64,000 nt of DNA. Origin: Candidatus Obscuribacterales bacterium. Its GTDB lineage: Bacteria; Cyanobacteriota; Vampirovibrionia; Obscuribacterales; Obscuribacteraceae. The notes beneath the pieces were generated by a model. The model was given only the letters and a program-made list of their open reading frames with translations. It did no database searches and had not been told where the DNA came from. Positions 14,294-16,486 of the stretch are shown in pieces. The position numbers were made by a program, and so were the translations under genes. The stretch covers positions 1-64,000 of the forward strand of contig JAKFVU010000002.1 of the NCBI GenBank assembly GCA_021732025.1. The letters are read 5' to 3'. Numbering within the stretch: the first letter of the stretch is position 1; each line of letters opens with the position of its first letter.

Positions 14294-14857
14294 CTAATTT
14301 GCTGCAAGTACGTGAATCGTTCTATTCCACCTAGTGTTTAGTATGAGCCCACTTACGGAAATTCCGGAAACAAGAAATAAGAATATTGGGAAATTATCAA
14401 GGCATTGCTTATACAAGCAGAGTCGATACAATGCTACAACGCTATAGGCGTACAACTTCTCTGCCTCACTCAACGACTCGCAAGGAACGGGAACAAACGA
14501 TTCGCACCAGAAAAAAACAAAACAACTCTTTTCTGAAAAGATAAGCTTTTCGTTCTCTCTAAGCCAAGTCTGATCCGGATTGCTTTGAGTCCACACAACA
14601 GAACCAGCGGCTGCTGAAACAAGCGAGAAAACCAACACCCTAACAAAATTGCGCAGTTGCTTCTCCCTAGACGGCCGAAAGCAACTGCGCAAAAGGCCAG
14701 CTATCGATGCTACCAGAAGCGCTAAAATCAGGAAATCACTTGTTTTTGAATATGCGAGAACGAATCCACTTAGTGTTATTGGAAAGCCAAGACAAGCGAA
14801 ATAGTAGATCCCCGGTAGTATAATTAGTGATCCTATAAAACTGAGACCGAACCACAT
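14294..14857 (-). CDS. Multi-TM membrane protein; candidate immunity protein for the adjacent RHS tip
   Basis: 187 aa, about 4 TM segments, Cys-rich loop; lies directly downstream of the RHS tip on the same strand. Confidence 0.5.
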   Translation of the reverse strand: MWFGLSFIGSLIILPGIYYFACLGFPITLSGFVLAYSKTSDFLILALLVASIAGLLRSCFRPSREKQLRNFVRVLVFSLVSAAAGSVVWTQSNPDQTWLRENEKLIFSEKSCFVFFWCESFVPVPCESLSEAEKLYAYSVVALYRLCLYKQCLDNFPIFLFLVSGISVSGLILNTRWNRTIHVLAAN

Positions 14858-14986
14858 TGTCTTTATCCTTAGTTTGCCCCAAAGTAAAAAACTAGTTCAA
14901 GAAAACCAAATTGTCAAGAAGCCACTTGAGGCCGACCTGTTTAGATCGACTCCAAGCCAACTCAGGCTACAATCACTTAACCTAGT

Positions 14987-15902
14987 TTACTCAAGTTGAC
15001 GCCCATTCCACGGGGATCCTCTACCAATATGACGGAGCTGAGATTCAGTAATATCAAATCTGGGCTTCGCTTCGTTAACCCCACCAACCTTATCCTTCAA
15101 CCAGCTACCCTGACCCATGATGTTGTCTTGCCCATATTTGGGTATGCCGTGACCCAATCCAAGCATGTGGCCGACCTCATGAGCTGAACGCCCCTGCAGC
15201 TTAGTGCCCCATGCACCTCTAGTATTGAGTTCAGAGAGTGGTTGACCCCTTTCACCAGATTGGGTGAATCCAGTGTGTTTTCTATTATCAGATGTCTTAG
15301 CCGACAAATCTACGATATTTCTGCCGTCGGCATCATCACGGAAAGCCCGGACGTTAATCACGTGATCGCCCCTTGCGGCCTTCCACTGATAGTTAATCGC
15401 TCCAATCTGTTCAGCAGGTATTTTCTCAGAACCAGGAGGGACATTACGATAACTCAAAGGGATAGAAACATCGACTACGTTCAGTTTAGTTACTTCGTCG
15501 ACGTGATTTTCAACCCTAAAATACAACCCATCTGGATCAGTATGATTCAGCCCATCGTTCGAGCAATACGCATACAAGTTCATGCCAGCCTTGTAGCCAA
15601 TCGGATCCGGCTGCAAGAAGCGCCCCATACCTGGGTGGAAGTAACGGGCCTTGTAATGGTAAAGCCCAAGCTCTTCTTCATAGCGTTGGCCCGTATAACC
15701 AATAGTGGTGCCGGGCAAAGTTGCTGCACTTTCACCGAACGGGCCGTATTTGTAGACACTAGTAACCGCACCCGTGCTCGGGTTCGACTGCGCAATCACC
15801 GAACCATGATGGTCATGGTGAATGTAGGTGAGCACGCCAGCAGAGGTCATCTGCAGAACTGGCTCTTCAGCACCAGCATAGACGTAGCGTGTGGTCAGAG
15901 TG
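14987..15902 (-). pseudogene. Orphan RHS C-terminal tip with metzincin metalloprotease domain, 5' truncated by element copy B
   Basis: RHS core end (YIHHDHHGSVIAQSNPSTGAVTSVYKYGPFGE...GLYHYKARYFHPGMGRFLQPDPIG...NLYAY) followed by HEVGHMLGLGH and Met-turn NIMGQG. The frame continues upstream of the ORF Met to 15902 (TLTTRYVYAGAEEPVLQ). Confidence 0.9.
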
Positions 15903-16486
15903 CTACTTGAACTCAGACAACTGTGGCACCACCTGCTGTTGCGAGCCTATGTAGGCAAGTTTGTGGAGCTACAAAAATCACTCGCTATTTTCGAAGAGCG
16001 AAAATGTTGAACTATGCCCCCAAAGCGATGGTTCAAAATAGTCTACTTGTAGGAAATTTGTAGCACCAGCTGACAAACTGTCGCAAACACATGCTCGAAA
16101 GTTTCTATTGGTTGGAGCCAATTTTGGCGGCATAGGGAATAGGCAAACGGAAGCCATCTATATGCTGGCACTCCAAAGTCGTGTATTAAAAGTCAATTTA
16201 GCGAGTCTTAAGTGGCACCTGATGCCACTGTGCAATATTCAGATTCTAATTGAACGAGTGACATGATTGATGCGAATTCGCTAACACTTTGCAAAATGCT
16301 GATTTTGTAGACTAAAAATGGTGCCTACAAGATTTCTACAAACGCGCTTGTAGAAAACGCCACTGAGATGGTGCCTGTTGCACTATTAAATAGTCATGTC
16401 ACCGGCTTTATAAATTCGACGCCTACAAACACGCCTACACAGTCGCCGAAACATTCTCTACACCTACCTTGTGTGAGTTCAAGTAC
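15903..16486 (+). mobile_element. Intact CTACTTGAACTCA element, copy B (MITE-like)
   Basis: Same ends and internal structure as copy A; truncates the RHS frame. Confidence 0.85.

Follow-up and report, generated by a model that had tools for sequence, protein, structure and literature searches.

Orphan rhs-CT/rhsI modules are known in enterobacteria, for example Salmonella STM0292 (PMC3150448, PMC3967940). Modules of this type consist of a 3' rhs fragment that retains part of the core and ends in a variable tip, and of an immunity ORF linked to it downstream; they are undeliverable as they stand. In Salmonella, an orphan tip can become fused to the main gene through a 522-bp stretch of 95% identity (PMC3967940). 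Among the toxin tips described at RHS C-termini are Tox-MPTase1-5 and other zincin tips, in which a zinc-peptidase motif is placed at the C-terminal tip of an RHS polymorphic toxin (Zhang et al. 2012, PMC3482391).

Here we describe a locus in the first 64 kb of a contig (C6; this whole stretch of 64,000 nucleotides is called the window) from a Candidatus Obscuribacterales genome of 4.6 Mb in 85 contigs, which is 84% complete. We consider it likely, with fair confidence, that this locus is a displaced (orphan) RHS toxin/immunity cassette that lost its RHS body at a small repeated element and that carries a tip of probable metzincin type. A displaced RHS cassette is a known kind of object, and the locus shares with the STM0292-type modules the fragment with its partial core, the variable tip, the linked downstream ORF and the undeliverable state. 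Unlike those modules, it does not lie downstream of a main rhs gene, its assembly contains no similar full-length partner, and a small repeated element bounds it.

The RHS core end occupies positions 15524..15901 of the minus strand (126 codons; TIGR03696, E=5.8e-25), and its 5' side is cut off by a copy of the repeated element, element B. From the edge of element B down to 14987 the minus-strand frame runs uninterrupted through core end and tip, and the tip starts directly past the DPDGL boundary, the point at which relatives diverge in the alignment. A first, sequence-only reading of this DNA had described a core end followed by a motif-bearing tip of ~180 residues on the minus strand, and the TIGR03696 match and a 178-residue tip bear this out. 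Two marks of an orphan cassette are present, namely a 3' rhs fragment with core end and DPxG boundary, and tips that vary among genes with the same scaffold, as seen in three relatives.

These three relatives (L011, L012 and L013) are the closest to the core end, at 85-90% amino-acid identity, and belong to Gw_Eff_bin_360 (G004), a genome of the same genus. L011 is a complete gene for an intact protein of 1971 aa with an N-terminal transglutaminase-like domain and RHS repeats, and is 90% identical to the core end in amino acids and 81% in nucleotides; L012 and L013 reach or nearly reach a contig end. Like the window's fragment, they have the scaffold end, the tip boundary and a downstream ORF, but their tips are others. 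Their scaffold is held in common and their sequences differ wholly after the boundary, so that L011, L012 and L013 carry three unrelated tips: a CDI_toxin_EC869-like nuclease (PF21111), one without a match, and Tox-REase-7 (PF15649). Since relatives with differing toxin tips have this scaffold in common, the family to which the fragment belongs is one of true polymorphic toxins. The architecture proposed from the letters alone is upheld by one scaffold whose tips are of three unrelated kinds, with known nuclease domains in two. No full-length RHS gene with the present tip was found in any collection searched. Two short RHS open frames of G004 (C48 and C72) were considered as further orphans and dropped, as both touch contig ends.

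Where is the remainder of the truncated gene? In the alignment with the three relatives, RHS homology extends to ~15901, the 12-bp terminal repeat of element B (TACTTGAACTCA) starts at 15904, and the other flank of the element (16486 on) holds a TPR gene rather than RHS sequence. The missing parts are absent from the 64-kb window and from the 84%-complete assembled genome, in agreement with the earlier description of an RHS frame that stops at element B and leaves an orphan tip. The only other RHS genes found in this genome are more distant: the one on contig C11 is 58% identical in amino acids in the core end and 35-42% elsewhere, and the one on C12 is 29% identical. The junction is read from the assembly, and a misassembly at the element is possible. 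In the simplest history, insertion of the element into an RHS gene would have been followed by deletion of everything upstream of the element, for example through recombination between two direct copies. The gene was probably cut in this way, in an order of events that we infer.

Element B (15904..16485, plus strand, 582 bp) is a full copy that abuts the RHS fragment, and it is 93% identical to element A, a second full copy beyond the immunity ORF (13556..14135, plus strand); both have perfect 12-bp terminal inverted repeats. The earlier reading had the cassette flanked by two element copies, and this pair is real, but the plus strand also holds pieces that it did not name: the left part of a further copy at 12222..12587 (element positions 1-363), the right part of a further copy at 17656..17879 (element positions 356-580), and a remnant of the right end at about 7083..7200. 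Both half copies are broken at element position 356-363, where they overlap by 8 bp, and they may be one copy split by a later insertion, for which the shared breakpoint is only suggestive. The copies are 3-8% diverged, and within their own genome all of them lie on this contig. With terminal inverted repeats and no transposase gene, the element is MITE-like. Inspection of A and B found no repeat common to the two flanks of either, and with no target-site duplication we name it only an inverted-repeat element.

Direct copies on either side of the cassette, together with RHS homology that stops exactly at the element end, could suggest that the element moves or exchanges RHS tips, now or in the recent past, and the sequence-only reading had proposed that the element may shuffle tips. 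The distribution and cargo of the copies led us to reject this idea. Of the three intervals that the copies delimit, only one contains an RHS tip, that of the cassette; the other two contain a TPR protein and a protein with a signal-like N-terminus whose function is unknown. Neither a recombinase gene nor a long ORF was seen inside the element. Weaker relatives of the element occur in other genomes (G002, G005, G009 and G004), where three of four related fragments are at loci without an RHS core and the fourth is a partial match on an RHS contig. Furthermore, the element is missing from most full-length RHS genes of relatives, and tips without it are already the pattern in G004. With the divergence of the copies and the missing target duplication added, tip swapping by this element appears very improbable.

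The tip (14987..15523, minus strand, 178 aa plus stop) is a predicted zinc endopeptidase of metzincin-like type. It contains HEVGHMLGLGH, the metzincin zinc-binding motif (15149..15181, minus strand). Across all six frames, the 64 kb has no other HExxHxxGxx[HD], compared with six bare HExxH. A candidate Met-turn, NIMG, follows at 15113..15124 (minus strand), and its Met stands 11 residues past the third His. The codons of the tip are coding-like, with an in-frame score of 0.115 and negative scores in every other frame. Outside the motif, the similarity is marginal. Pfam Peptidase_M10 matches the tip at E=0.021 and 15.1 bits, under the gathering threshold of 24, and no Pfam or NCBIfam model reaches its gathering score. 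With a profile built from seven matrixin-like proteins of this order the tip reaches 23.6 bits, whereas shuffles that keep only the motif average 16.8 bits and reach 23.6 in 2.4% of cases; in profile-profile alignment, 5% of such shuffles equal the tip's score. Comparison with solved structures gave only chance-level matches, such as a 30-residue match to MMP-12 at E=0.29. Structure prediction, which the earlier reading had suggested as a check, was run with AlphaFold on the tip as a single sequence without alignment, and the model was uninformative (pLDDT 37).

No close homolog of the tip was found in 60 relatives, a 386-genome sample of the phylum, 53 genomes from the order, or plasmid, phage and IMG/VR sequences, nor when IMG/VR was scanned with a degenerate motif and plasmids were queried with a short catalytic segment. 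What these collections yielded were weak, mostly motif-level matches to other metalloproteases. The described Tox-MPTase and zincin tips resemble the present one in the placement of a zinc-peptidase motif at the C-terminal tip of an RHS toxin, but none of the Tox-MPTase Pfam models matches it at E<=1, and its motif is the longer HExxHxxGxxH. A second comparison is offered by proteins of the same order in which a matrixin-like (M10) metzincin domain is joined to TPR-like repeats (L044, L046, L048, L054, L056, L058 and L061). They have HExGHxLGLGH and a later Met, as the tip does; in contrast, they are separate proteins with TPR-like N-terminal parts, none is an RHS protein, their Met stands 8-9 residues after the third His, and their similarity to the tip outside the motif is marginal.

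The metzincin domain seen in the sequence-only reading is plausible but weak, with the motif and a candidate Met-turn in place and the rest marginal by the shuffles. We draw the assignment mainly from the motif, similarity beyond it being marginal, and regard a metzincin-type protease as likely. That the motif instead belongs to another zinc-binding fold, or to an unrelated toxin fold, would fit the sub-threshold scores of every Pfam and NCBIfam model and the weak resemblance past the motif. This is unlikely, given the full 11-residue motif with a Met at a plausible distance, and given that the best weak matches are all to M10, reprolysin or other metzincin models or to matrixin-like proteins. 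Among described polymorphic toxins, protease tips form a minority. The present tip, unmatched by current family models, would be an unusual warhead with a predicted protease activity. A literature search found no paper that pairs the word metzincin with RHS toxins.

Downstream of the tip lies a candidate immunity gene (14294..14857, minus strand, 187 aa, with about four transmembrane segments and seven Cys), proposed from its position, its length relative to shuffles and its hydropathy. It begins 129 bp after the RHS stop, a gap that makes the earlier wording, by which a four-TM Cys-rich ORF follows "immediately", slightly generous; the ORF itself is confirmed. Hydropathy shows about four hydrophobic segments, and five of the seven Cys are in the long loop before the last one. 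The loop between the second and third segments is positively charged, which by the positive-inside rule suggests that the Cys loop faces outward. None of 2000 dinucleotide shuffles of the interval contains an ATG-started ORF of this length (maximum 166 aa). Of 14 RHS genes sampled in the genus, 11 are followed on the same strand, 11-435 bp past the stop, by the start of an ORF of 70 aa or more, and the present ORF therefore occupies the usual position of an immunity gene.

Could this ORF be a spurious frame, or a membrane gene that has nothing to do with the tip? Its codon usage is atypical relative to resident genes, no convincing homolog was found in any collection searched, and the 129-bp gap points the same way. 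Several accessory genes nearby likewise score low in codon usage, which fits acquired DNA; and the ORF is on the same strand in the immunity position, is open beyond chance and has a clear membrane-protein pattern. The alternative is therefore possible but doubtful, and the product is probably the immunity protein of the tip, a role assigned from position. The immunity gene of the sequence-only reading accordingly fits in its placement and stays plausible, although weakly so in view of its missing homologs.

In its present state the cassette is undeliverable, and renewed action would need recombination of its core stretch with a full-length RHS gene. The stretch available is 378 bp, and the best RHS gene found in any genome is 81% identical in DNA and lies in another genome, which makes reactivation unlikely with any partner seen. 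Neither the window nor the 84%-complete genome has a main rhs gene close by that offers a near-identical stretch; for this reason, the orphan label here covers the structure of the fragment, and we claim no role in recombination. Plain pseudogene debris, what is left of an RHS gene that element insertion and deletion destroyed, serving neither storage nor any future use, is accordingly a serious possibility, if somewhat short of an even chance. It is favored by the lack in the assembly of an RHS partner similar enough to recombine (at best 58% in amino acids), by element copies that are several percent diverged, and by a frameshifted resolvase remnant and split elements nearby that indicate decay. 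Yet the tip and immunity frames are both intact, with no stops or frameshifts, and the genome is only 84% complete while RHS genes often break assemblies, as in G004. Searches with PADLOC and Rfam gave no matches.

The surroundings of the cassette are variable. Between 20 and 34 kb the window is collinear with contig C5 of G004, synteny ends at ~19.8 kb, and the RHS side is not collinear; with collinearity lost on that side, the fragment sits in a fast-changing region. G004 has a different RHS gene ~19 kb further along the variable side. In addition, six loci of G004 have a convergent serine resolvase gene ~1-2 kb past the RHS stop, and others have degraded copies. The G004 resolvase copies are 91-100% identical and have a conserved terminator-like sequence alongside. 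RHS-linked resolvases of G004 and G005 are at L076:3154-3795, L077:2410-3054, L078:7269-7913, L079:2998-3642, L081:3195-3839, L082:8603-9232 and L089:11103-11702, and remnants are in L011, L013 and L074. In the genomes searched, seven of eight close resolvase copies have an RHS gene within ~5 kb, and most of the more distant resolvases lack such a neighbor. With resolvase and terminator-like sequence downstream of toxin/immunity pairs, conserved DNA flanks the variable cassette on either side. The resolvase module, rather than the window's element, is a candidate for machinery tied to cassette exchange. Our literature search found nothing linking RHS, serine recombinases and polymorphic toxins.

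The window also holds, at 10330-10584, a frameshifted serine resolvase remnant (PF00239, E=2.5e-16) that is convergent with the RHS tip and ~39% identical to the RHS-associated resolvases. At 9608-10036, a 142-aa ORF is 36% identical over 120 aa to a G004 ORF (L013:4090-4671) that lies ~1.3 kb past an RHS gene, and it is possibly another gene of RHS neighborhoods.

If delivered, the tip would travel on the RHS scaffold and cleave target-cell proteins, and a membrane-spanning immunity protein with an outward Cys loop would suit a toxin that acts outside the cytoplasm. The full proposal of a new pair, in which a metzincin acts outside the cytoplasm and is inhibited by the Cys-containing external loop of a polytopic protein, at RHS loci that in this genus can carry a serine-recombinase module, is speculative and, taken as a whole, improbable. 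Should the tip prove to be an active metzincin paired with a membrane immunity protein, it would add a toxin class whose site of action can be tested. The larger interest of the locus is its context: the order has many RHS systems, which are highly polymorphic, and in one genome they are linked to a conserved serine-recombinase module.
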